Below are positions 6,213 to 54,004 of a stretch of 64,000 nucleotides of DNA, in pieces. Location: the NCBI RefSeq assembly GCF_003003005.1, contig NZ_PVTR01000014.1, positions 1 to 64,000 of the forward strand. The letters are read 5' to 3'. Each line of letters opens with the position of its first letter. Position 1 is the first letter of the stretch. Below the pieces are notes generated by a model. It ran no database searches, had not been told where the DNA came from, and saw only the letters and a list, made by a program, of their open reading frames with translations. Position numbers and translations under genes: made by a program. The DNA comes from Mongoliibacter ruber (GTDB taxonomy: Bacteria; Bacteroidota; Bacteroidia; Cytophagales; Cyclobacteriaceae).

Positions 6213-7352
6213 TTAAGAACACAAATAGGTATTGAACCAACCCACTTGAGGGGGGGTAGGTCTGCTTTCCATCAATTGCTCCCATTCCTTCAGCACTTCC
6301 TCTACTTCTATTTTTATAACTTTATACTTATCTCCACGGACTTTGAACTGATACTGGTCACCAATAAAATATCCAGTTTCCAAATGAAATCGAAGTGCAC
6401 CTCTACTTCCAGTGATTGTAGTTTGTTCAAGCTTCTGTGCACATTCTTTCCAGCCCGTATTTGCTAAAGAAGAAAGTTTTTGAAGTACCTCTCCAGCATC
6501 CCAGCCCAAATATGAGAATGGGGAAGCTTCTCTCTTGACTTCAGTTTTGAAATATTCATTGATGGGTTGGAATCCCTTACTTGGCCACTCCGGACTCAGT
6601 GAACTACAGGCGATGATCTCAGGTAGTGCCATCTTTGACCCCAATTCATTTGAGATGATTTCATGGATTGTTGCCTGACTGCAGACCAAGGTTATTTTTG
6701 GATCAAAACCTTCTACAGCTTTGAGAAATAGGGGTAAAATTTCCCCTGTATAAGTAGAAAAAATCAATATGGGATCCTGATTTTCTTCTAAAAAGTCTAT
6801 TATTGATCGGGAATCAAAATCAGCTTCTAAATGCTTGGAAATAAAGTTGAATAAAATGTTAGCCCCTGCACTTTCCTGTCCAAGGTAAAATCCATCTGCC
6901 ATTCCATAGCCTCCATCATAAAAATTGGTTGCATTTATGCCTTTTTGAATCCCACTTTGGACTATCCCTTTTTTAGCAACTAATTTTGCAGAAAGCATTT
7001 CTCCCAAATTGAGAAATATCACGTATTCTGCAGCTTTCCATTTCACTGGATACTTTGCACCTGCATTTACAACAAGGATTGGCCTGCGAAACTGCGATGC
7101 CAATGGAAAGATTTTATCCACTTTAGGATGCTCTGCAAATACCACAACAACATCTACATTTTTTTCCAAAAACATCTTTTCGGTTTCTGAATAAAGCAGA
7201 TCATCATCTATCCCAAATCCAATGTTTGAAGTGAAAAAGGAAGGATTGTTATCGCCATGGAAAGCGTAAAATGCATTTAACCCATAAAAGAAATCATATC
7301 CTATATATGGATGCGTACTTGATTTAGGAAGTAAAATACCGATTTTTTTCAT
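6213..7352 (-). CDS. Type 1 periplasmic-binding-protein-fold protein without signal peptide
   Basis: This 379-residue protein has the type 1 periplasmic-binding fold seen in branched-chain amino acid receptors. It opens directly with the first beta strand (KKIGILLPKSS). A stretch resembling that family's hinge follows (VDVVVVFAEHP, FRRPILVVNAG), with a second lobe near residues 185-330 (DPILIFSTYTG, KITLVCSQATI). No signal peptide or lipobox precedes the fold, unlike ABC-transporter receptors, and no permease or ATPase lies nearby. Its ATG overlaps the stop of the upstream collar gene as TGATG, so the two are translationally coupled. The ligand is unknown. It may be a cytoplasmic sensor or assembly factor for the neighbouring surface proteins, which is inference. 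Confidence 0.8.
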   Translation of the reverse strand: MKKIGILLPKSSTHPYIGYDFFYGLNAFYAFHGDNNPSFFTSNIGFGIDDDLLYSETEKMFLEKNVDVVVVFAEHPKVDKIFPLASQFRRPILVVNAGAKYPVKWKAAEYVIFLNLGEMLSAKLVAKKGIVQSGIQKGINATNFYDGGYGMADGFYLGQESAGANILFNFISKHLEADFDSRSIIDFLEENQDPILIFSTYTGEILPLFLKAVEGFDPKITLVCSQATIHEIISNELGSKMALPEIIACSSLSPEWPSKGFQPINEYFKTEVKREASPFSYLGWDAGEVLQKLSSLANTGWKECAQKLEQTTITGSRGALRFHLETGYFIGDQYQFKVRGDKYKVIKIEVEEVLKEWEQLMESRPTPPQVGWFNTYLCS

Positions 7353-7897
7353 CAGGTTGGCGAAGGAAATATCCCAAATAGACTAATTATATAATTAACA
7401 GCTAAATAAGGCTGGATATTGGTATGTGGTTGACTGCCACCCTTGGGTGTCAAGATAGCCAAGTTGTCAACAGGCTGGGGAGTAGCCATATTTATATTCT
7501 CTCTTGCCGTTGTACTATAGAGGTTTACTCCAGGTGATATGGCGGGGTATTTTCCTGAGGGATCTTCCGAATTTCCTGCATTCGATCCCAAAGCTACCAT
7601 ACTTGGGCCTTTTAGTTTATGCGAATGCGCTGGAATTTGACCTATGCTTAAGGTTACTTGTTCGACACCGCCGGATTCTGCCAATGTAAAACCATTTCCC
7701 TGATGAATGGGAATCCTACCGCGTAGATCCGGCAGAGCAAAGGTAGATTGACCGTCACCTCCATAAGTGGTTCCAATTAGCTGAAACAAGGTTTCATTTT
7801 CCGAAATGGCCAGTAATTGCCCTTCACAAAACATCCACCCTGCTGGAGGGAAGTTACCGGCGAAAATTCGAATTTGTCCAATAAAAGGTTGAGACAT
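7352..7897 (-). CDS. Phage tail collar domain protein (MdpB-like), copy 3
   Basis: The roughly 181-residue protein has the collar-domain signature of microcystin-dependent (MdpB-like) proteins: an N-terminal IGQIRIFAGNFPPAGW block, then CEGQLLAI, GTTYGGDGQSTFALPDLRGR and a C-terminal NYIISLFGIFPS. I use the ATG at 7897 (MSQPFIGQ) rather than an in-frame ATG 15 codons upstream, because it aligns with the starts of the two sister proteins and leaves 5 bp after the preceding gene. There is no signal peptide. Related proteins are tail-fibre or spike components in phages, but free-standing bacterial copies have no settled function. It is the third of three tandem paralogues. Confidence 0.9.
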   Translation of the reverse strand: MSQPFIGQIRIFAGNFPPAGWMFCEGQLLAISENETLFQLIGTTYGGDGQSTFALPDLRGRIPIHQGNGFTLAESGGVEQVTLSIGQIPAHSHKLKGPSMVALGSNAGNSEDPSGKYPAISPGVNLYSTTARENINMATPQPVDNLAILTPKGGSQPHTNIQPYLAVNYIISLFGIFPSPT

Positions 7898-7902
7898 AGC
7901 AG

Positions 7903-8469
7903 TTAAGATCTTGGTGGGAAAACTCCTTGGAGAGCGATACAATAGTAAACAAAAAGGGATGGCTGCATATTGTTGTGGGCTTGCCCTTGGCCAAGGGGTT
8001 CGGTGCTGATATCTGAATTGAAAGTAGCCATGCTGCCATCAGAAGTGTCCGAATACAATTCGGCTGGATTTCCATTCACTTGAGCTCCTGCCTCAAAAGT
8101 TGCAGGATAGGCATTCAATGGCGAATCAGTATCAGCAGCAGCTCCAACTGGGATATTAATATCTACAGCATGTGTATGAAATGGAATTTGACTTTCAAGG
8201 AGGGTTACTGTGCCTTCTCCTCCTGATTCTCCCAGATCGTAAAGGGAAAGACCCGGGCCTTGACCAGGATGCATAAGAACCCTGCCCTGCAGATCGGGTA
8301 AGGCAAAAGTAGATTTGCCATCACCTCCGTATGTAGTTCCTAAGAGAGAGAATAAAGCTGTATTTTGGGATAAGGGCAATAATTGACCGTTACACCAAGC
8401 CCAGCCTCTAGGCGCAAAATTGAAAGGAAATATGCAGATTTCTGCAACAAATGGATCAGTGGCGCTCAT
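7903..8469 (-). CDS. Phage tail collar domain protein (MdpB-like), copy 2
   Basis: This is the second of three tandem collar paralogues, about 188 residues. Shared blocks are the N-terminal FVAEICIFPFNFAPRGW, CNGQLLPLSQN, GTTYGGDGKSTFALPDLQGR and YYCIALQGVFPP at the C-terminus. The middle (about residues 95-150) is unlike the sisters in sequence and so may be the binding face. The ATG at 8469 (MSATDPF) is preferred over an in-frame ATG 15 codons upstream because the upstream codons overlap copy 1 and are not conserved. Gaps to both neighbours are 5 bp, indicating one transcript. Confidence 0.9.
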   Translation of the reverse strand: MSATDPFVAEICIFPFNFAPRGWAWCNGQLLPLSQNTALFSLLGTTYGGDGKSTFALPDLQGRVLMHPGQGPGLSLYDLGESGGEGTVTLLESQIPFHTHAVDINIPVGAAADTDSPLNAYPATFEAGAQVNGNPAELYSDTSDGSMATFNSDISTEPLGQGQAHNNMQPSLFVYYCIALQGVFPPRS

Positions 8470-8474
8470 GGTTT

Positions 8475-9017
8475 TTAATTTGGAGATGGGAAAATACCCT
8501 GGAGGGCAATACAATAATTGAGTGTCAAAAACGGCATCATATTCGAATGCGCTTCACTACCTCCAATACTACCAGAGGAATTTGAATCAGAAGATTGTTC
8601 AGCAAGGCCTTCATCAAACTTCTCCCCGAAACGGTTGGGGAGGTTACTATTCCCTGCAAAAAACCGTCCCTCTGGATCTCCTGAATTAGCAGATGAGGAT
8701 GCATTTGTGTTTATAGCAACAGCAGGCGATTTATTTGACTCATGCAAGTGGGTTGGAACTTCTGATATGTTCAATGTATGCGTTTGCGCGCCAACTCTTT
8801 GACCCAATACAAAACCAGCTCCTACATGCGCCAAAGCTCTACCCCGTAAATCCGGTAAGGCGAAATTGACACGCCCGTCTCCTCCGTAAGTAGTTCCTAT
8901 AAGTGCATATAAGGCTTGATTTTGGTTAATTGGTAGTAATTGTCCATTGCAAAGAGCATAACCCTTTGGTGCAAAATTGAATGAGAACAGCACTATTTCC
9001 GCTAGAAATGGTTCCAT
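8475..9017 (-). CDS. Phage tail collar domain protein (MdpB-like), copy 1
   Basis: First of the three collar paralogues, 180 residues, starting MEPFLAEIVLFSFNFAPKGY. It shows CNGQLLPINQNQALYALIG, TTYGGDGRVNFALPDLRGR and a closing NYCIALQGIFPSPN. The variable middle is rich in Ser, Asn and Gly. There is no signal peptide. It begins 2 bp after the stop of the Tat-exported pseudo-phosphatase gene, so the collar genes are transcribed with it. No head, portal, terminase, sheath or baseplate genes are in the window, so this is not a prophage or an obvious contractile injection system. Confidence 0.9.
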   Translation of the reverse strand: MEPFLAEIVLFSFNFAPKGYALCNGQLLPINQNQALYALIGTTYGGDGRVNFALPDLRGRALAHVGAGFVLGQRVGAQTHTLNISEVPTHLHESNKSPAVAINTNASSSANSGDPEGRFFAGNSNLPNRFGEKFDEGLAEQSSDSNSSGSIGGSEAHSNMMPFLTLNYCIALQGIFPSPN

Positions 9018-23593: not shown

Positions 23594-24199
23594 ATGAATA
23601 ACCTTGATTCCCCATCAATTTCCAAACTGGTATCACAACTTAAAGAAGGAGACCAGAAGGCATTTGCAGCTTTGTTTGAGCTGTTTTCTCCTAAATTGAT
23701 TCGCACCGCTGAACGGATGTTCGTTTCAAAAGAAGATGCTGAGGGTATGACTCAGGAGATCTTTATTTTTATCTGGGAAAAACGTAATAAGCTTAACCCT
23801 GACTTATCCTTTAATGCTTACTTGCTCACTATATTGAAGTCCAAGCTTTACAAAAAAGTAAAGGCAGATGCCAGGGAAACAGCTTATCAAAAATATGCAA
23901 TACAGCAAAAGGATGGGGAAAGTAGCTTTACCGAAAGTGAAGTGATGTATGAAGAGTTAAAACTACTATCTACAAAAGCGATCGAAAATTTACCCAATCA
24001 ACAAAAACAGATTTTTTTGTGGAAAGGATTAGAGAATTTAACATCTGATGAAATCGCCTCTAAGCTGGGACTATCAAAAAGGACAGTAGAGAATCATTTT
24101 TATCAAGCAAAAAAGAAGCTTCAGGCAGAAATCAGTAAAGAGTATTCAATACCCATGAAGAAGCTAATGGTACTTTTAATAGCTTTCATTATAAAATAA
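23594..24199 (+). CDS. ECF RNA polymerase sigma factor (FecI-like)
   Basis: A 201-residue extracytoplasmic-function sigma factor. Region 2 spans about residues 18-85 (DQKAFAALFELFSPKLIRTA, TQEIFIFIWEKR) and region 4 about residues 130-185, with the helix-turn-helix LTSDEIASKLGLSKRTVENH. It ends in an unusual hydrophobic tail (KLMVLLIAFIIK), common in Bacteroidota sigma factors of the FecI type. The FecR-type anti-sigma gene follows, then SusC and SusD. In such sets, substrate at the SusC receptor signals through FecR to release the sigma factor. Confidence 0.92.
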   Translation: MNNLDSPSISKLVSQLKEGDQKAFAALFELFSPKLIRTAERMFVSKEDAEGMTQEIFIFIWEKRNKLNPDLSFNAYLLTILKSKLYKKVKADARETAYQKYAIQQKDGESSFTESEVMYEELKLLSTKAIENLPNQQKQIFLWKGLENLTSDEIASKLGLSKRTVENHFYQAKKKLQAEISKEYSIPMKKLMVLLIAFIIK

Positions 24200-24329
24200 A
24201 AGTAAGGGTATACATCCATTAAAAACTGTTGCGGTTTAATTTTTCAAAATAATATCAACTTTTTTTCAATTCCAACTGAGTAAATATATCGAGTTGAGGC
24301 TATATACAACAGAACATAGCCTGATATAC

Positions 24330-25307
24330 ATGCAATTTGATTATCGAGATTTTGAAAAGTACCACAATGGAATGATGGACAAGACAGAAGCTACAAGGTT
24401 TTTGGAATGGCTTGAATCCCCTGAAGGTGAGAAATCATTTCAGAAATGGCTTGAAAATGATTGGGATACATACTCCCGAGTTGAACCACAAAAAATCACT
24501 TTATCAAAAAGCCAAACAAATAGAGGGGGAATTAAAATCAGAAGGTATTGGCAAAATATTGCAGCTGCAGTACTTCTGGTACTTACAGCAATTTTTGTTT
24601 TCTATTTAAACAGAGACAGTGACCCACCCGCTGAATATCAGACCAGTATTCAACCTACTGATATTGTCAAATCCGCACCTAAGGGCAAAAAAACTACAGT
24701 TACCCTTTCGGATGGGAGTAAGGTTTACCTGAATTCTGAAAGTGAAATACACTATTTGTCCAACTTTAGAGATGAGCGAACGCTGAAATTGAACGGTGAA
24801 GCTTTTTTTGAGGTGGTCTCAGATAGTCTCAAGCCATTTACTGTCATCACTGATGGTGTTTCTACCATTGCCCTTGGTACGAGCTTTAATATAAATGCTT
24901 ACAAAGACAAAGGGGAAATTTTTATAGGCTTGGCCAGTGGAAAAATAGTAATAGAAACTGCGCAAAGCGCAAACGGGAAATTACTTGTCAAACCAGGAGA
25001 GGGTGTAGGTTACGGGTTGGAATCCGGAGCCCTTTTCAAAAAAGAAATCGACATCAATAAAATTGGCCAATGGAAGTCTGGAATACTGGAATTTGAAAAT
25101 ATGCCCCTTGATGAAGTGCTGCAAACGCTGGAACGCTGGTATGATGTGGAAATTCAAGTAGAGAGGAATAAAAGTATTCCTAAGGAACTATGTACGGGGA
25201 GATTTAAACCCAACGAATATTTGACCAATGTTTTAGAGTCACTATCCCATGCTATTGATTTTGACTACTCAATTGACAAAAAGAAAGTCGTACTGAATTT
25301 TAAATGA
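24330..25307 (+). CDS. FecR-type anti-sigma/transmembrane sensor
   Basis: A 325-residue inner-membrane regulator. The N-terminal cytoplasmic part (about residues 1-75) would bind the sigma factor, and a membrane helix follows (IAAAVLLVLTAIFVFYL). The periplasmic FecR domain (about residues 110-215; TLSDGSKVYLNSESEI, LNGEAFFEV, VITDGVSTIALGTSFNIN) precedes a C-terminal DUF4974-type domain (FENMPLDEVLQTLERWYDV). I use the ATG at 24330 because the longer frame starts at a TTG with no homologous residues. It probably senses the loaded SusC receptor through that receptor's N-terminal STN domain. Confidence 0.92.
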   Translation: MQFDYRDFEKYHNGMMDKTEATRFLEWLESPEGEKSFQKWLENDWDTYSRVEPQKITLSKSQTNRGGIKIRRYWQNIAAAVLLVLTAIFVFYLNRDSDPPAEYQTSIQPTDIVKSAPKGKKTTVTLSDGSKVYLNSESEIHYLSNFRDERTLKLNGEAFFEVVSDSLKPFTVITDGVSTIALGTSFNINAYKDKGEIFIGLASGKIVIETAQSANGKLLVKPGEGVGYGLESGALFKKEIDINKIGQWKSGILEFENMPLDEVLQTLERWYDVEIQVERNKSIPKELCTGRFKPNEYLTNVLESLSHAIDFDYSIDKKKVVLNFK

Positions 25308-25439
25308 TTAAGCCTATGTAAACAACAAATAAGATTAAACCACAAATACCCCATTACTCTGTGCCCTAGTATTCAATAAATAGGTGTCTACGGAGCATTA
25401 CCATAATTATTAGTTTGTAAACCAATCAAAACCCAAGAT

Positions 25440-28400
25440 ATGTTACCTAACCTTTACAAAACAATGATTATGGTCTTCAAATTGGTCACAATCCTGACCC
25501 TTTTCCTGACCATAACCTCCCCCGCAGTATTTGCTGAAAGCAAAATGGACCAGGTCAAAAGTATTGATGAAGTATTTATCACACTTGAGATCCAGGAAGG
25601 CAATTTGGAAGAAATTCTAAATGCAATAGAAAATAAAACTGAGTATAGTTTTTTTTATACACAGAAGAATCTTAAAAATAAAAATTCAATCAGGCTTTCT
25701 TCGAAAGAAGGGAAGGTCTCAGATTTTTTAATGGATATTGCCAGCCAAAGACGCTTACATTTTAAACAAGTAAACAATGTAATCAGTGTTCGTTCCCTAC
25801 CAGAACAATCTGATTCCAGTCCTATTGCTATCGAAATCAATGATTTGGAAGTAGAAGTCAAAGGGACTGTTACCAATCAAGATGGTGAATCACTTCCAGG
25901 GGTAGCAATTTCAGTGATGGGCACTACTACTGGCGCAATTACAGATATTGATGGTAATTACCAAATACTGGCACCTGATGGAGCTACATTGGTTTTTTCC
26001 TATATAGGATACAGTACTCAATTCATCGAAATCGGCAATAGGTCTGTCATAGATGTCATCATGGAGGAAGATACTCAAGGACTGGAAGAGGTTGTGGTTA
26101 CCGCTTTGGGTATCCAAAGATCTGCCCGAAGCCTGGGTTATTCTACTTCAAGTGTGAAGTCAGAAGAAATTACAGTCAACCGTACTCCGAACATGATGAA
26201 TGCCCTCGTTGGCAAAGTAGCCGGAGTTAATATTTCCCCCATGGGAACAGGTCCTGGCGGGACTTCAAAAATCAGGATACGCGGTCAATCATCTTTATCA
26301 GGACAAAATAATCCATTAATTGTGATCAATGGTATTCCTATTGATAATACAAATTTTGGAACGAATCCAGGTAATCAAGGCGCGGATGGTGCTATTGGCA
26401 ACAGGGGTGGAGGCATGACCTCAGATGGAGGAGATGGACTTTCCAGTATCAACCCGGATGATATAGAGGACATGACGATATTGAAAGGTGCTGCCGCCTC
26501 AGCGCTATATGGAAGTAGGGCAAAGGATGGCGTCATCATGATTACCACCAAAAGCAGTGCAAAAACAAAAGGAATAGGTGTGACATACAATGTGAATTAC
26601 ACCAATGAACAACCTTTGGATTTTACTGACTATCAATATGAGTATGGCCAAGGAGAAGGTGGTGTCAGACCAACAAGCCCCAACCCAACATCCGGACAGT
26701 GGTCTTTTGGTGAAAGGTTTCAATCAGGGATGACACAGGTTTTGTTCGATGGTATCACTGTACCATATGTGCCAAACCGTGGAATGATCAATCAGTTTTT
26801 CAGAAACGGTCAGAACCTGACCAATACCGTTTCTATATCTACAGGTGGAGATAAAGGTGGTCTTACTTTTTCTTTTGCCGATATGAATAGCAAAGGGATT
26901 GTACCCAATAATTCATTTAACAGAAAGACTGTATATCTAGGTTTCAATTATGATTTAACTCCTAGATTAACCATTAGAGGGAACGTGAATTACTCTATTG
27001 AAGAGAATACAAACCCACCAAATGTCGCAGAACAAGACAACTCAATCCCTACGGCACTCTACAATATGGCTAACTCCATGCCATTGGACGTATTGAGAGA
27101 CAACTATTTGGATGCCAATGGAAATGAAGCGGTTTATTCAAGGTTCAGAAACCGAACCAATCCTTACTTTACGTTGAATGAGCAGTTTCAGAATATCAAG
27201 CGAGACAGGATTTTCGGAAACGTATCTTTGAAGTATGACATTCTGCCTTGGTTGTATGTTCAGGGCAGAATTGGACAGGATTATTGGTCCCGTGACCAGG
27301 ATTTTAACAATTTCCCACATGGACATGCATCACGGGCACCCGCTCCAGTAGGTTTTGTAAACGGAGTATATACCCAAGAGTCCAGGAGATTCAGAGAAGT
27401 CAATGCTGACTTTATTCTGTCCGCCCAAAAAGAATTTGGTGAATTTGAGACGAGTCTCAATGTTGGGGGAAATCATATGTATAGGTCTTCTGACCGCAAC
27501 AGTGTGCAGGTTACTGATTTTATTATCAGGGATTTGTATACTGTTCAGAATGGTAGAGTCAAAGATCCAATTTATAATTTCTCTGAAAGATCTGTCAATT
27601 CTTTATTTGCATTCGCAGAGGTCTCTTACAATAAGACCATTTACCTGAACGGTACCTTGAGGAATGATTGGTTTTCTACATTGTCAGAAGAAAACCGAAG
27701 CATTATGTATCCCTCAGTTGCATTGAGTTATGTGTTTACAGAAAACCTGGTCACAAACCGCTTCTTGAACTTTGGTAAGTTCCGTCTTGCTTATGCAGAA
27801 GTAGGTAGTGACTCTGATGTGGCACCTTACTCCAATGTGTTGTTTTATGGAGTCAATGCAAATCTCTTCAATGGTCAACCTGTAGGTTTTCCTCTTGGCT
27901 CTACATTGCCTAACCCCAACCTTCGTCCTATGAGGATTTCAGAAGTTGAAGCTGGAATGGAGTTGGCATTTTTAGATGGAAGGGTAAATCTTGACATCGC
28001 AGCTTACAATAAGATCACGACTGACCAGATAGTAAGTGCTCAAATCTCTGATGCTTCGGGGTTTCAAACAACAGCAATCAACAGCGGACAAAGCAGAAAC
28101 AGAGGGATTGAAGGTTTGTTAAGGATAATTCCTATTGAGACAGATAATTTTCTATGGGAAGCTTCGATAAACGGCGCATATAACAAAACCAAGGTTCTCA
28201 GTTTATTGACAGATGTTCCAGGTGAAAGAATAACAGTGGGTACACATGTTTTTAATGGTGAATTGAGGCAAATAGTAGGAGAAGAAATGGGGCAGGTTGC
28301 TGGATTTGGTTACAGAAGAGATGAAGCTGGAAATATAATCTTCGGTGGCAACGGTTTGCCTTTAAGGACTCAGGATTTGGTCAATTTCGGAAGTGCATTG

Positions 28401-28922
28401 CCTAGATGGGTTGGGGGTATTAATAATGCCTTCAATTATAATGGGATATCATTTTCTTTCTTAGTCGATTTCCGACTTGGAGGAACGATGCTTTCGGGCA
28501 CCAATTTTAATGCTGTAAGGCATGGCTTACACAAGATGACACTTGAAGGTCGTGAAGGTGGAGTAGTGGGGCAAGGAGTCACTGAGACAGGGGAAGTTAA
28601 TACTGTGGCAGCACCGGTTCAGACTTATTGGGAAGTTGTCAGGTCACAAGGTTTGGTAGAACCCGTTGTGTATAACTCAGGCTTCTGGAGGCTGCGGCAA
28701 ATCACTCTAGGTTACGATTTGGCAAGGGTAATTCCCCAAAACCGCTATTTCAGTTCAATGCAATTGAGTTTTGTTGCCAACAATGTGTTTTTACTTAAGA
28801 AATGGGTAGACAATATAGACCCTGAATCTTTTGGGTATACTTCAGATAATCTTGTAGGATTGGAATCTACAGGTCTGCCAAGTACAAGAGGCTTAGGCTT
28901 CAATCTTAATGTTAAATTTTAA
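25440..28922 (+). CDS. SusC/RagA-family TonB-dependent outer-membrane receptor with STN domain
   Basis: A 1160-residue outer-membrane importer. After the signal peptide (to about residue 32) comes an STN signalling domain (about residues 45-120). Next are a carboxypeptidase-regulatory-like domain (VKGTVTNQDGESLPGVAISV, about 138-215), the SusC motif GLEEVVVTALGIQRS, the plug (IRIRGQSSLSGQNNPLIVI, LKGAAASALYGSRAKDGVI) and a long beta-barrel ending in VKF. The STN domain fits control by the upstream sigma/FecR pair. With the SusD lipoprotein it would form a lidded pump for an oligosaccharide. The ligand is not apparent, though the GH95 gene points to a fucosylated or L-galactose-containing glycan. 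Confidence 0.96.
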   Translation: MLPNLYKTMIMVFKLVTILTLFLTITSPAVFAESKMDQVKSIDEVFITLEIQEGNLEEILNAIENKTEYSFFYTQKNLKNKNSIRLSSKEGKVSDFLMDIASQRRLHFKQVNNVISVRSLPEQSDSSPIAIEINDLEVEVKGTVTNQDGESLPGVAISVMGTTTGAITDIDGNYQILAPDGATLVFSYIGYSTQFIEIGNRSVIDVIMEEDTQGLEEVVVTALGIQRSARSLGYSTSSVKSEEITVNRTPNMMNALVGKVAGVNISPMGTGPGGTSKIRIRGQSSLSGQNNPLIVINGIPIDNTNFGTNPGNQGADGAIGNRGGGMTSDGGDGLSSINPDDIEDMTILKGAAASALYGSRAKDGVIMITTKSSAKTKGIGVTYNVNYTNEQPLDFTDYQYEYGQGEGGVRPTSPNPTSGQWSFGERFQSGMTQVLFDGITVPYVPNRGMINQFFRNGQNLTNTVSISTGGDKGGLTFSFADMNSKGIVPNNSFNRKTVYLGFNYDLTPRLTIRGNVNYSIEENTNPPNVAEQDNSIPTALYNMANSMPLDVLRDNYLDANGNEAVYSRFRNRTNPYFTLNEQFQNIKRDRIFGNVSLKYDILPWLYVQGRIGQDYWSRDQDFNNFPHGHASRAPAPVGFVNGVYTQESRRFREVNADFILSAQKEFGEFETSLNVGGNHMYRSSDRNSVQVTDFIIRDLYTVQNGRVKDPIYNFSERSVNSLFAFAEVSYNKTIYLNGTLRNDWFSTLSEENRSIMYPSVALSYVFTENLVTNRFLNFGKFRLAYAEVGSDSDVAPYSNVLFYGVNANLFNGQPVGFPLGSTLPNPNLRPMRISEVEAGMELAFLDGRVNLDIAAYNKITTDQIVSAQISDASGFQTTAINSGQSRNRGIEGLLRIIPIETDNFLWEASINGAYNKTKVLSLLTDVPGERITVGTHVFNGELRQIVGEEMGQVAGFGYRRDEAGNIIFGGNGLPLRTQDLVNFGSALPRWVGGINNAFNYNGISFSFLVDFRLGGTMLSGTNFNAVRHGLHKMTLEGREGGVVGQGVTETGEVNTVAAPVQTYWEVVRSQGLVEPVVYNSGFWRLRQITLGYDLARVIPQNRYFSSMQLSFVANNVFLLKKWVDNIDPESFGYTSDNLVGLESTGLPSTRGLGFNLNVKF

Positions 28923-28934
28923 ACGGACACTATC

Positions 28935-30461
28935 ATGAAAAAGCGATTATATCATTTATTTGTTGCCTTCACGTTGCTTGTGGTTTCATCATGTGACCAA
29001 AATTTTGATGAGTGGAATACCAATAGGGTTGATGCCACAAACATCAACCCAGCGTATCAGTTGAATCAAGCAATCATCAATTCTTCAGCTTCATCTTTTG
29101 GGACGATGGTGTATGAATTGGGGATTGTACAACAACTGATTTCACCAAACTCAGGTGTACTAACAGGAGCCAATTACAATCAGGATAACAGGGCTTCAAC
29201 ACAAAATAATTGGCAGGTTTATTATAGAGAAGTTATCAAAAATACCAAGGATATAATTCGAAGAATTCAGGACGATCCCAGCAGACAGGATCTCTATCAA
29301 ATGACCCGAATTATCCAAGCCAATGCCTTTATGGTATTGACTGATACTTATGGTTGGGTTCCATATACCCAAGCCGGTTTGGGATTTTCTGATCAACAGA
29401 TTTTTTTTCCTGCCTATGATTCACCTGAATTCATTTATGGAGAAATCATCAAGGAGCTCACAGAAGCATCCAACGCGCTTGGTGCGGCAGGTAGTAATGT
29501 CGAGACAGGGGAAATCCTATACGGCGGAAATGTAGACCAGTGGAGAAGGTTTGCCAACTCACTCCTCTTGCGTGCAGGTATGCGGTTAAGTCGGGTTGAT
29601 CCTTCGCGGGCAGGCCAAATTGTCCAAACAGCCTTTTCCAGTGGTGTGATCCTGAGCAATGAAGACAATGCCTTGGTAAGACATGACAATAACTTTCTCA
29701 ACCCAATTGGAAATACCTTGAATGCCACTGAGGCATCAAACGTGTACATGACAGAGCCATTTGTAAATTACCTAAAAGAAAATAATGACCCTAGGTTGAG
29801 CGCTATTGCAGTAAGATATGTGGGAGCTACCTCAGGCACGCAACATACTGTAGATAGACAAAGCTTTGACCCTGAAGTCCAAATCGGTATGCCAATGGGT
29901 TTAGACAATGTTACTGCAGTTGAAAGAGCTGCTAGCATGGGCTTGGCAAGTTTTTATGATTTCACTCAAATTGACCGAAGAAGAATCACCAAGCTCAATG
30001 CCCCCAACTTTATTGTCACTGCTTCTCAGACAAATCTGCTTTTGGCAGAAGCTGTCAGCAGAGGCTGGATAGCTGGTGATGCTGGAAGCTTTTATTCTGA
30101 AGGGATTAGACTTCACATGGAACAAATAGGAACCTATGATGAAGCTTCGGTTATCCCAGATGAGGAGATAGCTGCTTATTTGGCGGCTAATCCTTTGAAT
30201 GAAGGCTCAGCTTTGGAACTTATCAATACTCAATACTGGGTTTCATCCTTATTGAACGGTCCTGAGGCTTTTGCGAATTTCAGAAGAAGTGGTTTTCCTA
30301 ATCTTGCCCCCAACCCTTATCCAGGCAGGGAAGTAGAGTTTATCAATAGGTTGACTTATCCTAATTCGGAAATATCTGTCAATGAAGAAAATGTGAGTCA
30401 AGCTATCAGTCAGCAAGGTCCTGATAATCTTGAAACCAGAGTATGGTGGCACACTCCCTAA
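28935..30461 (+). CDS. SusD/RagB-family surface lipoprotein (SusD-like group 2)
   Basis: A 508-residue lipoprotein with lipobox VVSSC near residue 20. The all-helical TPR-containing fold is supported by NPAYQLNQAI, NWQVYYREVIKNTKDIIRRI, AFMVLTDTYGWVPYTQAG, EIIKELTEASNAL, NSLLLRAGMRLSRVDPSRA and a late LINTQYWVSSLLNGPEAFANFRRSGFP block. It begins 12 bp after the SusC stop and forms the lid of that receptor, binding glycan at the cell surface. A stem-loop follows the stop, which could lower read-through into the next gene. Confidence 0.95.
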   Translation: MKKRLYHLFVAFTLLVVSSCDQNFDEWNTNRVDATNINPAYQLNQAIINSSASSFGTMVYELGIVQQLISPNSGVLTGANYNQDNRASTQNNWQVYYREVIKNTKDIIRRIQDDPSRQDLYQMTRIIQANAFMVLTDTYGWVPYTQAGLGFSDQQIFFPAYDSPEFIYGEIIKELTEASNALGAAGSNVETGEILYGGNVDQWRRFANSLLLRAGMRLSRVDPSRAGQIVQTAFSSGVILSNEDNALVRHDNNFLNPIGNTLNATEASNVYMTEPFVNYLKENNDPRLSAIAVRYVGATSGTQHTVDRQSFDPEVQIGMPMGLDNVTAVERAASMGLASFYDFTQIDRRRITKLNAPNFIVTASQTNLLLAEAVSRGWIAGDAGSFYSEGIRLHMEQIGTYDEASVIPDEEIAAYLAANPLNEGSALELINTQYWVSSLLNGPEAFANFRRSGFPNLAPNPYPGREVEFINRLTYPNSEISVNEENVSQAISQQGPDNLETRVWWHTP

Positions 30462-49083: not shown

Positions 49084-49096
49084 TACTAAAAAACGT

Positions 49097-49130
49097 AAAA
49101 GCCTGTAAATCATATGATTTACAGGCTTTT
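49097..49130 (-). terminator. Perfect 34-bp palindrome, tRNA-Pro terminator
   Basis: AAAAGCCTGTAAATCAT is followed immediately by its exact reverse complement, with flanking T runs on the minus strand (TACGTTTTTTAG). It lies 25 bp beyond the tRNA 3' end. Confidence 0.75.
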
Positions 49131-49154
49131 GATAGGCTTTGATTACCCATTCTG

Positions 49155-49228
49155 TCGGGGTGACAGGATTTGAACCTGCGACCACACGCCCCCCAGACGT
49201 GTACGCTACCGGACTGCGCCACACCCCG
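49155..49228 (-). tRNA. tRNA-Pro, anticodon GGG
   Basis: 74 nt. Acceptor arm CGGGGTG/CACCCCG, D arm with GTCCGGTAGCG, anticodon stem CACGT/GCGTG with loop CTGGGGG (anticodon GGG), T arm with GGTTCAAATCC, discriminator A. No CCA is encoded. It reads CCC and CCU codons. Confidence 0.96.
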
Positions 49229-49578
49229 AATTGAAAACCGAAATTAATACCACTTACTTGTTAATTCAAGCTTCTCTTACAAATTTTTAATTTTCACTCC
49301 TTACTTTTTTCTATAGCTTCTAATGACAAATATATCGCCTATTGATAAGTTCAACCCGACAGCATTACTCCATTTTTATAAGTAACACTTACCGAAGTCT
49401 TCGGATATAACCTTAGCAAATAAAAATTAATGCTTCAATCAGAATATTACCACCTATTGGGATAAAAAAATAGAATACTTTATAGTATATTGATGTATAT
49501 ATAGTATAATATTCTGTTTAGTAGTTCCTGGTTTATTATGTCAACCACCATTTTACCAACCAAAACCAAAAAATAAAC
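49229..49578. other. Intergenic region between tRNA-Pro and subtilase gene
   Basis: Divergent, AT-rich promoter region. Near-match boxes such as TATATTGA occur about 100 bp before the subtilase ATG, but none is a full TAnnTTTG. No ORF is seen. Confidence 0.55.
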
Positions 49579-50988
49579 ATGAGACAATTTTCAAAAATCC
49601 CCCTCTTCTTCTTGCTGCTGGTAATGATTAGTGTATGCTCTTGTAATGAAAATAATACAAGAGGCGCAGAGAATGGCAGCAGCCCATTGACAGGGCTAAA
49701 GACTCCTTTTGTCAAAGGAGAAATAGTAGTTGCTTACAAAGATGGAAATGTTGCCAAAACTTATGCCCCAAAAGTAGACTCCTTGATAAGGGCAGAATTT
49801 GAAAATGCGGAACAAATCAAATGTGCAAGCTGCATCAATTTAACCGAATTGTGGAGAGCTGAAGGGATTGAGTATTTCATTGAAAGTTTACTGAATAGTT
49901 TAATGGATGGACATAGTGGTATCAGAAGCACTACGCCTACAGGAGTAGCAGGTAGTACAGGTGATGAAAATGTATCTATTTCTTTAAATTACATTACAGA
50001 GCTGTATGAAACTGCCGAATTTCAGAGTCAGCATTCCTATGCTTCTACATCCAGTTTACAAGCCAATGACGATTTGATAATTGCTGTTTTAGACTCTGGA
50101 ATAGATAGTCAGACTCTTGGGGATCAATACCTGTGGCAGTCAAAAAATGATGATTCCTGTTTTCCCAATGAAAAATATGGTTGGAATTTTACAGAAGATG
50201 GAGAAGCCTTTGATATTGCTGATAACACATCATATAAGCATGGAACATTGGTCAATCTATATATATTGGAACAATTGTACGCCAATTCAGCTAATGTCCC
50301 ACGAATTTTAAATGTAAAAGTGCTAAATGAGGACAATAAAGGAACTTTGTTTTCTCTTGTGTGCGGGGTTCATTATGCTGTTTTCCAGGGTGCTTCGATT
50401 ATAAATACCAGTCTTGGCTTTTATGACAGTACAGAATATTCTCAATTTACAAATGGTAGGCATCCTATCATGCACTACCTGCATAACACTTATGCAAATG
50501 AAGGCAAAATACTATTTGTTACAGCTGCCGGTAATGAAGTAAAAGATCAAGGAACTGTCCGGAACTTAGAAGAAAACCCATTTTATCCGGCTGTGCTAAG
50601 CGAAAATGAGAAAGTAAAAATCAACAACGTCATATCAGTAACTACTTCAGATATTCAGGGAAACTATGTAAGTCCAAAACAAAATTATAGCCCCAGGCAT
50701 GTTGATGTTGCTATTCGTTCGGATTTTGACGATAATTTTGGATTTGCATTGCCTTTTTCTCTGAGGGGAGAACAGCAGGAGATGATTGGGTCATCTTTTG
50801 CCACGGCAATTTTCACAGGTAAAATTGCCGCTAAATGGAATAACGAGCGTGAAAGAATTGATTTTTCATATCAATCTAAATATGATTGGATAGATGATAT
50901 TTTTCCTCCGGACAGGCGTGAAAATCAAGAACTTAATTCACAAGTTAACAGAGGTTTTTCCTATATTAGGTTAAACAATCAGCCTTGA
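49579..50988 (+). CDS. Lipoprotein subtilase (S8 peptidase) paired with CHAT gene
   Basis: A 469-residue subtilisin-like serine protease with a lipoprotein signal (SVCSC near residue 22). The triad is visible: Asp172 in AVLDSGID, His221 in KHGTLV, Ser406 in GSSFATA, with the oxyanion Asn in TAAGNEV. The N-terminal about 140 residues include a pair of Cys (CASC) and a region that could act as a propeptide. It ends 1 bp before the CHAT gene, so the two are translationally linked. It is probably outer-membrane or periplasm anchored and could process, or be processed by, the CHAT partner. Confidence 0.9.
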   Translation: MRQFSKIPLFFLLLVMISVCSCNENNTRGAENGSSPLTGLKTPFVKGEIVVAYKDGNVAKTYAPKVDSLIRAEFENAEQIKCASCINLTELWRAEGIEYFIESLLNSLMDGHSGIRSTTPTGVAGSTGDENVSISLNYITELYETAEFQSQHSYASTSSLQANDDLIIAVLDSGIDSQTLGDQYLWQSKNDDSCFPNEKYGWNFTEDGEAFDIADNTSYKHGTLVNLYILEQLYANSANVPRILNVKVLNEDNKGTLFSLVCGVHYAVFQGASIINTSLGFYDSTEYSQFTNGRHPIMHYLHNTYANEGKILFVTAAGNEVKDQGTVRNLEENPFYPAVLSENEKVKINNVISVTTSDIQGNYVSPKQNYSPRHVDVAIRSDFDDNFGFALPFSLRGEQQEMIGSSFATAIFTGKIAAKWNNERERIDFSYQSKYDWIDDIFPPDRRENQELNSQVNRGFSYIRLNNQP

Positions 50989-50989
50989 T

Positions 50990-53770
50990 GTGAACTTTCT
51001 AAAAAGCATATTATTTATTGTTTTTATTTTTCTATTAAAAGTGGGTTTGTTGCTGGCACAGTCAGTTGACGAACCTGCTTTTTGGTTGGATCAGGTGAAT
51101 ATCATACATGCTGATCCCGAATTGAGCTGGGAGGAAAAGCAGGATAAAGTGGAATTGATTAGGCAACAGTTTTTGATGCAAAACGACAAAAACGGAGTTT
51201 ATGCCAAAATTATCCACCGATTGGCTGACTACAAGCGGATATTGGGGGAATTTCAGGAAGCGATCAATCTGATGCAGGAAGCCATTGCTATCAACAAATC
51301 CAATGTAGCACATGCAGAGGAGCTGTACCTGACTTTTACTTTTTGTAACATCGGAATTGCCTATCAGGAGCTTGGTATGCAGGAAAAAGCTGAGGCTTAT
51401 TATGACAGTGCTCTTCACCTGCACCGCAGGTTTCCTGATGAAACCTTTATACCTGCTTTTGTGACTTTTGACAGGAAGACGGTTTACACATTCAATAAAG
51501 GAGAGTATCAGCGGACAGTGGACCTCATAGATTATGCCTTTGGTTTTATCAAAGGTTTAGAGGGAACTGTGCAGGAAAATTTATTGCAGATCAAAAAGGC
51601 CAGAGCCTTGTTGGAATTGGGGGAGTTTGAACAAGCCGAAAAATTATACCTGCAAAGCATAGCGGTTTTTGAAAGTGGTGAATATTCCGGTGAGTACCCT
51701 GCTTTCGCTTATAATTCTTATGGCATTTACCTTGCCACGAGTGGAAGACCTGAGGAAGCAGAGGAATACTTCAATAAGGCACTAAAAATTTATCTTGCCA
51801 TGGACTACTTGGGAAATGTACTCAATGTCCTAGACGAGCTGTATTTCACCTGGGCAGAAAAGGATGACAATAAAGCATTGACTTACCTTCGCCGTTCACA
51901 AAAATATCTGGAACCTTACCAAGGAGCTAGAGAGCACCTCTCCACACTCAATCATATAGGGGCTTCATTTATCCGTCTGCAACGTTTTGATGAAGCATTA
52001 CCACACCTTCAAGATGCACTGCGCCTTGCAGTAAAAGATTTTGACCCAGCTGACCCCTACGAAAATCCCACAATCTCCCAAATCCAGCAGACAAGCAATT
52101 TTATGGAAATTGCCATGATTCTAAAAAATAAGGGAGAAAATATGCTGAGGAAATTTCAGCATAATGGTGGGTCTCAAGAGCAGCTTAGACATGCACTTGC
52201 CACCCTGAAGCTTGCCGATAAGGTGATAGACCTGATGCGCTGGGATCAGCAGGCTGAAAATACCAAAGCATATTGGAGAGGCTATACCAAACCGGTTTAT
52301 GAAATGGCTCTGGAGGCTGCCTACCAGAAAAATGACCCCAGAGCAGCTTTTTATTTTATGGAAAAAAGCAGGGCCGTGATGCTCAATGATAAGCTCAGTG
52401 AAATGGGGGCTTTGAAGTTTTTATCTGATGAAGATATTTATAGGGAAAAGCAACTGAAAAAAGAGTCTTTGACTTTTAAAGCGGTTTTGGAATCTACAGA
52501 CAAGGAAGATCAGGCATTCTACACAGCTTCCGTGAATTGGTTTGAGGCCCAATCCAATTATGAAGCCTTTATCAAAGAATTGGAAAACCGTTATCCCAAT
52601 TACTACCAGTATAAATATGATACGGCTGTCATTTCCTTGGATCAGTTTCAGCATCAGGTTCTGGGGGATGGTCAGGCCTTCATTTCTTACTTCTTGGGTG
52701 ATGATGCCCAGTATGCTTTGCTTGTAGCCAAAAATAAGTTGGTGCTTGAAAAGAAAGAAAGGTCTGGCTTGGATGAAAACATCAAGCAATTAAATGCACT
52801 CGTGTCAAACAGAGGAAAGTTAAATCAGAACTTCTCAAGTTTTCAGGAATTGGCATCGAAACTTTACCTTCAATTAGTACCCGAATCAGCTGAGGATTTT
52901 GACCGGTTGATTATCTCGCCAGATGAATATTTTGTTCCATTCGAGCTATTGATGAAAGACCGTCAAGACCCTGATTCCTATATGGTTCAAAGTCATGCAT
53001 TGAGTTATAGCTACTCTGCAGGATTCTTGCAAAAGCACATGAAACCCACAGCCAAACACCAGGTTTTCGGCCTAGCTCCTGTTGAATTCAAAGCAGAACT
53101 TCAGCAAGCTAGTCTGCTTGGGGCTGACCTGTCCTTGAAAAGGATCAATACATTTTTTCCAAGGAATCATTTTGTGACGCATGAAAAAGCCACAAAGCAG
53201 AGTTTTCTGGATAATTTGTCCCAATACTCTATTGTTCAGCTCTATTCCCATGCTGTAGCCGATGCTGAAGGCATTGAACCCAGGCTATATTTTTATGATG
53301 AATCTATGCCATTGTCAGAGTTACAATTGTTGGGAGACTTGTCAACTCAGCTGATCGTATTGGCTGCATGCAATACAGGAATAGGGAAAAATATAAGTGG
53401 GGAAGGAATTTTTTCTTTGGCGAGGGGTTTTGCCGCAGCCGGAATTCCATCAAGCGTGACAACACTTTGGGAAGTAGAAAGTAAAACTACTTATCAGATT
53501 ACCGAATTGTTTTACAAATACCTGAGCAAAGGTTTGCCAGCTGATGTGGCCATGCAAAAAGCCAAATTGGAATTTATGGATCAAAATGAATCAGTGATGC
53601 AGCTTCCTTATTTTTGGGCAGGAAATGTATTGGTCGGCAGGGCAGAGGTAATGATGCCGGCTCAAGCAGGAAAGAGGTTTTTTTGGATTTTTGGAATGTT
53701 TGTGCTTTTCGTTTGTCTGGGCTTTTTATATTCCTGGATGAATAGCCGGAAAAGTAAATTGATAAAGTAA
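50990..53770 (+). CDS. Exported TPR-CHAT (caspase-like) protein with C-terminal membrane anchor
   Basis: A 926-residue protein. A signal peptide (residues 1-24) is followed by TPR repeats (about 50-450; KIIHRLADYKRILGEFQEAI, YNSYGIYLATSGRPEEAEEY, HLQDALRLAV), a linker, and a CHAT domain (about 600-885) with the dyad His754 (LYSHAVAD) and Cys794 (LAACNTGIG), plus GEGIFSLARGFAAAGIPSS and PYFWAGNVLVG. A transmembrane helix near 900-918 anchors it. The start is a GTG at 50990, because the overlapping ATG is read straight into a stop. CHAT domains are caspase-like proteases of conflict and cell-death systems. Here the catalytic side would be extracytoplasmic. Confidence 0.92.
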   Translation: MNFLKSILFIVFIFLLKVGLLLAQSVDEPAFWLDQVNIIHADPELSWEEKQDKVELIRQQFLMQNDKNGVYAKIIHRLADYKRILGEFQEAINLMQEAIAINKSNVAHAEELYLTFTFCNIGIAYQELGMQEKAEAYYDSALHLHRRFPDETFIPAFVTFDRKTVYTFNKGEYQRTVDLIDYAFGFIKGLEGTVQENLLQIKKARALLELGEFEQAEKLYLQSIAVFESGEYSGEYPAFAYNSYGIYLATSGRPEEAEEYFNKALKIYLAMDYLGNVLNVLDELYFTWAEKDDNKALTYLRRSQKYLEPYQGAREHLSTLNHIGASFIRLQRFDEALPHLQDALRLAVKDFDPADPYENPTISQIQQTSNFMEIAMILKNKGENMLRKFQHNGGSQEQLRHALATLKLADKVIDLMRWDQQAENTKAYWRGYTKPVYEMALEAAYQKNDPRAAFYFMEKSRAVMLNDKLSEMGALKFLSDEDIYREKQLKKESLTFKAVLESTDKEDQAFYTASVNWFEAQSNYEAFIKELENRYPNYYQYKYDTAVISLDQFQHQVLGDGQAFISYFLGDDAQYALLVAKNKLVLEKKERSGLDENIKQLNALVSNRGKLNQNFSSFQELASKLYLQLVPESAEDFDRLIISPDEYFVPFELLMKDRQDPDSYMVQSHALSYSYSAGFLQKHMKPTAKHQVFGLAPVEFKAELQQASLLGADLSLKRINTFFPRNHFVTHEKATKQSFLDNLSQYSIVQLYSHAVADAEGIEPRLYFYDESMPLSELQLLGDLSTQLIVLAACNTGIGKNISGEGIFSLARGFAAAGIPSSVTTLWEVESKTTYQITELFYKYLSKGLPADVAMQKAKLEFMDQNESVMQLPYFWAGNVLVGRAEVMMPAQAGKRFFWIFGMFVLFVCLGFLYSWMNSRKSKLIK

Positions 53771-53879
53771 CTCAGAAGCATTTCTCTTAGATCAGTTATC
53801 CCCTTCAATTCTTTTTTGAAGAATGTATATTTAATCAGGAGCAGGATTTTTTAAAAGATTTCCAAAATCAGGTAACATA

Positions 53880-54004
53880 ATTAAGCATAGCGGATATGGT
53901 TAAGAACAGACGGTAAAATGGGGAAACCACCGTCGGTTTGGGGTGAACACAACTTTTGGGAAACCTATCCTTCTGCCGCTTTATTTTTTAGCGGCACTTT
54001 TTAT
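53880..54004 (+). ncRNA. Possible small RNA or structured 3' UTR after CHAT gene
   Basis: Three hairpins in a row: GACGGT/ACCGTC (53909-53934), GGTTT/AAACC (53935-53965) and the terminator at 53974. It begins about 110 bp past the CHAT stop. The 5' end is a guess and no known RNA family is recognised. Confidence 0.35.
53974..54004 (+). terminator. Rho-independent terminator
   Basis: Stem TGCCGCT/AGCGGCA with a 9-base T-rich loop, then cttttt. It ends the subtilase-CHAT transcript or the small RNA candidate. Confidence 0.8.

Follow-up and report, generated by a model that had tools for sequence, protein, structure and literature searches.

A subtilase and TPR-CHAT protease pair of Mongoliibacter ruber as a candidate part of a sigma/anti-sigma envelope-signalling unit in Bacteroidota

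The protease pair and its chromosomal setting

We analyzed a 64,000-nucleotide stretch of the Mongoliibacter ruber genome (contig NZ_PVTR01000014.1, positions 1 to 64,000; hereafter the window), which carries two adjacent plus-strand genes encoding an S8 subtilase and a protein that joins tetratricopeptide repeats (TPRs) to a CHAT protease domain. The S8 gene (49579–50988, ATG start, 469 aa; Pfam PF00082, E 9e-18) specifies a predicted lipoprotein whose N-terminal signal ends in VCSC, with Cys22 as the predicted lipid site, and its triad D172/H221/S406 and oxyanion residue N319 are invariant in an alignment of 11 diverse homologues, as expected of family S8. The TPR-CHAT gene (50990–53770, 926 aa) begins with GTG after a 1 bp gap. 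According to Pfam and an AlphaFold2 model (pLDDT 90, pTM 0.84), its product consists of a signal peptide ending in LAQ, about 350 aa of TPRs, a helical linker, the CHAT domain, a C-terminal transmembrane (TM) segment and a basic tail. The CHAT domain (52847–53638, plus strand, residues 620–883, C-terminal to the TPRs; PF12770, E 2.5e-38) contains the catalytic pair H754/C794; in an unselected alignment set, the His is kept in 13 of 13 homologues and the Cys in 12, in keeping with the CHAT family. The TM segment (53672–53740, plus strand, hydrophobic helix 894–925) is followed by the tail NSRKSKLIK, and a C-terminal anchor with a K/R tail is present in nearly all TPR-CHAT homologues. Because a signal peptide is combined with a C-terminal stop-transfer helix and a basic tail, the positive-inside rule suggests that the TPR and CHAT domains of the window protein are periplasmic. 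Searches of either protein against the PDB with phmmer returned matches only to TPR proteins or generic subtilisin. Overall, the features on which the original prediction for this locus was built, namely the two open reading frames (ORFs), their 1 bp spacing, the GTG start, both export signals and both catalytic sites, were confirmed, the catalytic residues being conserved in the homologue alignments as well.

The S8 query matched 13 genomes among 98 relatives, and in about ten of those 13 a CHAT gene lies directly 3' on the same strand; the gap of a single nucleotide is shared by the window and four near copies. The adjacency of the two genes is not due to chance, and this survey, which had been proposed as a check, bears out the expectation that the pair is conserved. 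The genes on its right flank (GSDH-cytochrome, ThuA-like, HAD and beta-lactamase-fold genes) are syntenic between the window and Arthrospiribacter (G043), and the pair therefore has a settled chromosomal place. The statement that no RNA-guided or CRISPR gene lies nearby also proved accurate: the neighbors are metabolic and regulatory, no Cas7-11 effector or CRISPR locus was found beside the pair (Cas7-11 was not searched genome-wide), and cas1 is absent from the genome. A PADLOC search gave no match for the S8 protein and only a generic TPR model, with an E-value of 0.009, for the CHAT protein. Just upstream of the pair, at 49090–49228, the window carries a minus-strand tRNA gene and a strong inverted repeat; the matching place in Indibacter (L198) is occupied by a recombinase-like ORF, and the protease pair is missing there.

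A four-gene operon in Bacteroidota

Many related CHAT genes lie beside an extracytoplasmic function (ECF) sigma factor gene and another that encodes a single-TM protein whose TPRs are periplasmic, hereafter the anti-sigma-like protein. A scan of named genomes yielded 80 loci from Cyclobacteriaceae, Spirosomataceae, Cytophagaceae, Sphingobacteriaceae and Chitinophagaceae, and operon structure was counted in the 66 with at least 3.8 kb of upstream sequence. The order sigma, anti-sigma, S8, CHAT on one strand was found in 45 of these 66 loci, while 10 have sigma, anti-sigma and CHAT without S8, five have S8-CHAT alone and six have neither the sigma/anti-sigma genes nor S8. Intergenic gaps within the operons are mostly below 40 nt, and the sigma and anti-sigma genes often overlap by 4–8 nt. 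The product of the first gene matches the ECF sigma profile TIGR02937 above its cut-off (E 4e-16 to 2e-20), identifying it as an ECF sigma factor. Judged by gene order and homology, the pair is thus half of a widespread, putative stress-signalling unit of four genes in Bacteroidota. The description of the locus as a two-protease module was correct insofar as the extracytoplasmic pair is real, but it was too narrow, since sigma and anti-sigma-like genes normally precede the pair. That earlier reading missed the ECF sigma gene and the anti-sigma-like gene, their unlinked copy in the window genome and the promoter-like motif common to both places, which are described below; its suggestion of an envelope-signalling role for a conserved extracytoplasmic pair, rather than a CRISPR role, is supported.

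The second operon gene has good, though not final, support as encoding a protein with a zinc-less anti-sigma domain. Its product begins with a cytosolic part of about 85 aa, followed by one TM segment and the periplasmic TPRs. When the N-terminal parts of 57 members were searched, 28 matched the NCBIfam antisigma model, 13 Pfam zf-HC2 and six RseA_N (best 3.3e-5); in full-length proteins the antisigma match spans the N-terminal domain and the TM segment (best 2.5e-6, below the curated cut-off). The matches to all three models are consistent and weak, lying under the curated cut-offs. AlphaFold2 predicts three confident helices for the N-terminal domain, and in a Foldseek search with this model the best PDB match was MucA-AlgU, followed by RslA, RsiW and RskA; 12 of the 17 matches were anti-sigma factors, with every E-value at 2.9 or above. 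For a comparison within the window, we built a profile of the anti-sigma-like proteins without FecR sequences. It matched the N-terminus of the FecR protein encoded at 24294–25307 (independent E-value 1.1e-7) and no other non-member. This FecR belongs to a FecI/FecR-like sigma/anti-sigma pair within 23594–30461 that precedes two large ORFs located where SusC/SusD genes usually stand, and its N-terminus is related to the anti-sigma-like protein of the S8-CHAT system.

The export of the two proteases bears on what they might do to one another. The original prediction proposed a periplasmic cascade in which the lipoprotein subtilase activates the CHAT protease, and several observations are in its favor: the genes are adjacent and probably co-transcribed, both products carry export signals in the window and its clade, and the S8 and CHAT distance matrices co-vary (Mantel r 0.69, with none of 5000 permutations above 0.21). 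However, only 26 of 55 S8 partners have an N-terminal hydrophobic signal, often with a lipobox, and 29 have none by the crude rule that we applied to mechanical start calls; the CHAT protein, unlike its partner, is exported almost everywhere. Partners without a signal occur in Pedobacter, many Spirosoma, Mucilaginibacter and Lunatimonas, and in operons such as L114–L119, L128 and L137–L140 an S8 protein without an export signal stands where other operons have a lipoprotein S8, an apparent switch of compartment. The claim that both enzymes face the periplasm therefore stands for the window pair and fails as a rule. A cascade running directly from S8 to CHAT cannot hold in general when about half of the S8 homologues carry no signal, and there are operons that do without S8 while keeping sigma, anti-sigma and CHAT. 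We accordingly consider such a cascade improbable. A TM anti-sigma protein would be a better common substrate than a periplasmic CHAT protein because it can be reached from both sides of the membrane. The distance matrices of the anti-sigma-like and CHAT proteins are likewise correlated (0.72).

A split operon, a shared promoter-like motif and a candidate small RNA

In Mongoliibacter and two neighboring genera the operon is split. The other half in the window genome is a cassette on contig C7 (L191), with a sigma gene at 6720–7292, an anti-sigma-like gene at 7297–8082 and a gene for a 163-aa lipoprotein at 8296–8787, syntenic with Mongoliibacter LCM1.Bin19, Arthrospiribacter and Indibacter. 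The separation of the halves appears to be derived, because in the CHAT tree the window clade nests within a Cyclobacteriaceae group in which the full operon also occurs (support 98–99). Among 59 relatives, the anti-sigma subtype of the cassette (E<1e-20) is present in every one of the five genomes with the S8-CHAT clade and absent from the remaining 54, one of which gave a weak match (Fisher p 2e-7). The subtype and the pair share one locus in three of the five genomes and are unlinked in two, both Mongoliibacter; since three sit at one locus, it is the unlinked cases that are informative, namely the two Mongoliibacter and, elsewhere, Indibacter and Arthrospiribacter.

The Indibacter cassette raises the question of whether catalysis is needed at all. 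A CHAT gene still lies 3' of its sigma, anti-sigma and lipoprotein genes and has lost the catalytic Cys, as might be expected if an idle CHAT protein acted as a receptor that masks the anti-sigma-like protein through its TPRs and cuts nothing. Retention of His and Cys in all 80 scanned loci speaks against this, although the figure for Cys is partly a selection effect, since the search pattern includes that residue; for the same reason, the 12 of 13 from the unselected alignment is the fair figure for C794. We regard an idle receptor as a very unlikely general explanation. The Indibacter gene (L194 8719–11496, G039:C11) encodes LTGGGS in place of the Cys, is fast-evolving and likely specifies a pseudoprotease.

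Two further observations concern the partners of these genes. The window genome contains a second set of sigma, anti-sigma and TPR-CHAT genes (L033 4173–13946, G000:C2; CHAT protein of 1066 aa), followed, in place of S8, by genes for two lipoproteins of 836 and 858 aa that are related to each other; the one searched against Pfam had no match. The lipoprotein of the C7 cassette belongs to a family of 160–175 aa proteins with the signature GHDF ... GxGExY, putative members of the sigma regulon encoded in one to three copies (L191 8296–8787; L142 4081–5885), for which a Pfam search likewise gave no match.

A promoter-like motif appears to link the two halves of the split operon. Aligned upstream regions of the lipoprotein gene from four genomes share a strongly conserved block, GGTAACA ... 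GGATAT, which was first spotted by eye and afterwards searched for. The ECF-type form GTAACA-N15-GGATA has two sites in the 5 Mb genome, one before the lipoprotein gene of the C7 cassette and one at 49382–49407 (plus strand), 197 bp upstream of the S8 start codon. In three relatives an N14 form lies 269–286 bp before S8, and in Arthrospiribacter the surrounding sequence has diverged. Altogether, GTAACA-N14/15-GGATA precedes the lipoprotein gene in four of four genomes and S8 in four of five; it is also found before small lipoprotein-like genes in Pararhodonellum and Lunatimonas, and before S8 in Pararhodonellum and one Lunatimonas. The sites are few, at the lipoprotein gene, S8-CHAT, a candidate small RNA and one response-regulator gene. 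As the reversed pattern yields about as many matches genome-wide, it is the positions of the sites, and not their count, that matter: a single random site would land in the 300 bp before a named operon with a probability of about 3e-5. An alignment of the regions upstream of the sigma gene showed no motif.

A second copy of the motif within the window, GTAACA-N14-GGATAT (53872–53897, plus strand), lies just past the CHAT stop codon, and Arthrospiribacter (L022) has one in the same place. It precedes a putative sigma-dependent small RNA of about 100 nt (53904–54002, plus strand) with the conserved core GGGTGAACACAACTTTTGGGAAA and a terminator hairpin at 53974–53996 followed by a T run. The core is present in exactly three of 146 genomes, those of the window, Arthrospiribacter and Indibacter, each time with the motif 5' and a GC-rich hairpin 3'. 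It directly follows the CHAT gene in the window and in Arthrospiribacter, and in Indibacter it adjoins the same GSDH neighbor even though the protease pair is absent there. In Indibacter an A-T pair replaces the T-A pair that closes the hairpin, and the stem still pairs. An Rfam search with the small RNA gave no match.

Structural relatives and a proposed envelope relay

TPR-CHAT proteases are known mainly from type III-E CRISPR systems, where one of them relieves the inhibition of an ECF sigma factor. A Foldseek search with the window TPR-CHAT model placed Csx29 first (E 1.3e-14) and DdvA second. In VIA-align comparisons, the CHAT half matched separase with Z 27.6, and the whole model matched Csx29 with Z 25–26 and DdvA with Z 20.9 over 525 residues; the catalytic His and Cys align with those of Csx29. 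In the type III-E system (CASP/Craspase), the TPR-CHAT protease Csx29 cleaves the inhibitor Csx30, whose target is an ECF sigma factor (PMC10028731). The Bacteroidota unit appears to have the same three kinds of part, and its CHAT protein shares the Csx29 architecture. It differs in that the CHAT protein of the window is exported and membrane-anchored whereas that of Craspase is cytosolic, that the presumed inhibitor spans the membrane and carries periplasmic TPRs, that an S8 protease is added, and that the window genome is cas1-free with no CRISPR gene adjoining. On the simplest reading, a TPR-CHAT protein, an inhibitor and an ECF sigma factor would form a recurring relay, here placed at the envelope.

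The second match suggests another possible role. In Myxococcus xanthus, inactivation of DdvA frees the sigma factor DdvS (PMC4374960), and DdvS, with DdvA as its anti-sigma factor, controls a defense island with CBASS and type III-B CRISPR (PMC12288465). DdvA is a TM anti-sigma chain of 991 residues that aligns with both the TPR and the CHAT parts of our model; by contrast, the anti-sigma-like and TPR-CHAT proteins of Bacteroidota are encoded by separate genes in all loci inspected and have no known defense regulon. By analogy, the unit might sense phage at the envelope and switch on defense genes. Set against this likeness are the PADLOC result, the lack of cas1, the motif sites, which lie at the lipoprotein gene, S8-CHAT, the small RNA and one response-regulator gene, and the position of the pair at a locus syntenic with another genus, with no obvious island. 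The defense role raised by the original prediction thus found no direct evidence in these searches or among the neighboring genes, and we think a phage-defense regulator improbable.

Other known systems share parts of this arrangement. In the actinobacterial group ECF54, subtilase and CHAT proteins are already on record as genomic neighbors of the sigma factor (PMC8999054), and the association of an ECF sigma factor with these two is therefore not wholly new. That group was described without an anti-sigma factor, on a Geodermatophilus model, whereas the Bacteroidota loci have an anti-sigma-like gene after the sigma gene and do not fit this description. With RseA/DegS and FecI/FecR the unit would share a single-TM anti-sigma protein, a cytosolic anti-sigma domain, here putative, and an expected release by proteolysis; the signalling protease would here be CHAT, a caspase/separase-like cysteine protease, instead of DegS or a TonB-linked route. 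A literature search for CHAT and anti-sigma factors in Bacteroidetes found nothing relevant, and these ECF groups may have been annotated before. Three elements are apparently new within the literature covered: the Bacteroidota operon of four genes, one of them for an anti-sigma-like protein with TPRs; the split operon whose halves share a promoter-like motif; and the candidate small RNA.

We somewhat favor the view that S8 and TPR-CHAT make up the protease half of a unit for envelope signalling built on an ECF sigma/anti-sigma pair, in which CHAT cuts the anti-sigma protein and thereby releases the sigma factor. The sequences themselves give the conserved operon, the unlinked cassette, the common motif, the domain identities and the topology signals; binding of the sigma factor, proteolysis and its target, the triggering signal and the part played by S8 are what we infer. 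The anti-sigma-like protein, with its cytosolic domain, one TM segment and periplasmic TPRs, would hold the sigma factor at the inner membrane, and the TPR-CHAT protein, anchored in the same membrane, would recognize it, plausibly TPR to TPR. An envelope signal would lead CHAT to cut or gate the anti-sigma protein, after which further intramembrane proteolysis may release the sigma factor. The freed sigma factor would then transcribe the small lipoprotein gene, the S8-CHAT pair (a feedback) and the small RNA. The subtilase, the least settled part of the unit, may serve as an accessory protease that trims or turns over the anti-sigma or the CHAT protein. A fuller version, to which we give somewhat less credence and which we offer tentatively, is a CRISPR-free envelope relay in which a protease resembling separase and Csx29 acts in the periplasm, cleaves a membrane-bound anti-sigma protein and frees an ECF sigma factor controlling a lipoprotein, the proteases and a small RNA, making it a cousin of the type III-E CRISPR protease arm, perhaps kin to its ancestor.

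Several points weigh against a protease acting upstream of the sigma factor. The Foldseek support for an anti-sigma domain is not significant by itself, and the distance correlations among S8, CHAT and anti-sigma-like proteins partly reflect a common species history. The motif is confined to a subgroup of Cyclobacteriaceae, with no enrichment ahead of sigma or S8 genes in other families, and the loss of the Cys beside sigma and anti-sigma genes in Indibacter implies that catalysis may be dispensable in at least one member. The motif before S8-CHAT would, moreover, fit equally well if the proteases were effectors, serving envelope protein quality control or self-damage, while the sigma and anti-sigma factors sensed the envelope in some other way. 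S8-CHAT and the small RNA carry the motif of the lipoprotein gene and so behave as regulon members, and the window clade has the proteases at a different locus from the sigma and anti-sigma genes. On the other hand, CHAT stays beside these genes even where S8 is gone, convergent CHAT/anti-sigma arrangements exist in Cyclobacteriaceae, and Csx29 and DdvA, which are related in fold to CHAT, both have a direct part in sigma control. We therefore hold a purely effector role for the proteases to be unlikely, though it deserves serious consideration.

The kinds of part known from the type III-E systems seem to recur, CRISPR-free and on the other side of the membrane, in dozens of Bacteroidota. If CHAT does cut the anti-sigma protein, this would be a second use of bacterial caspase/separase-like proteases, as a site-1 protease for anti-sigma factors, and would hint at the origin of the Craspase relay. 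Pedobacter, Dyadobacter, Spirosoma and Chitinophaga offer culturable hosts for study. The loci also include a different CHAT family (L079, L085, L087, L089, L090, L095–L101), which as a rule has no adjoining sigma/anti-sigma pair; its members are about 900 aa long, mostly without a C-terminal TM segment, and have an ORF of 310–345 aa upstream.

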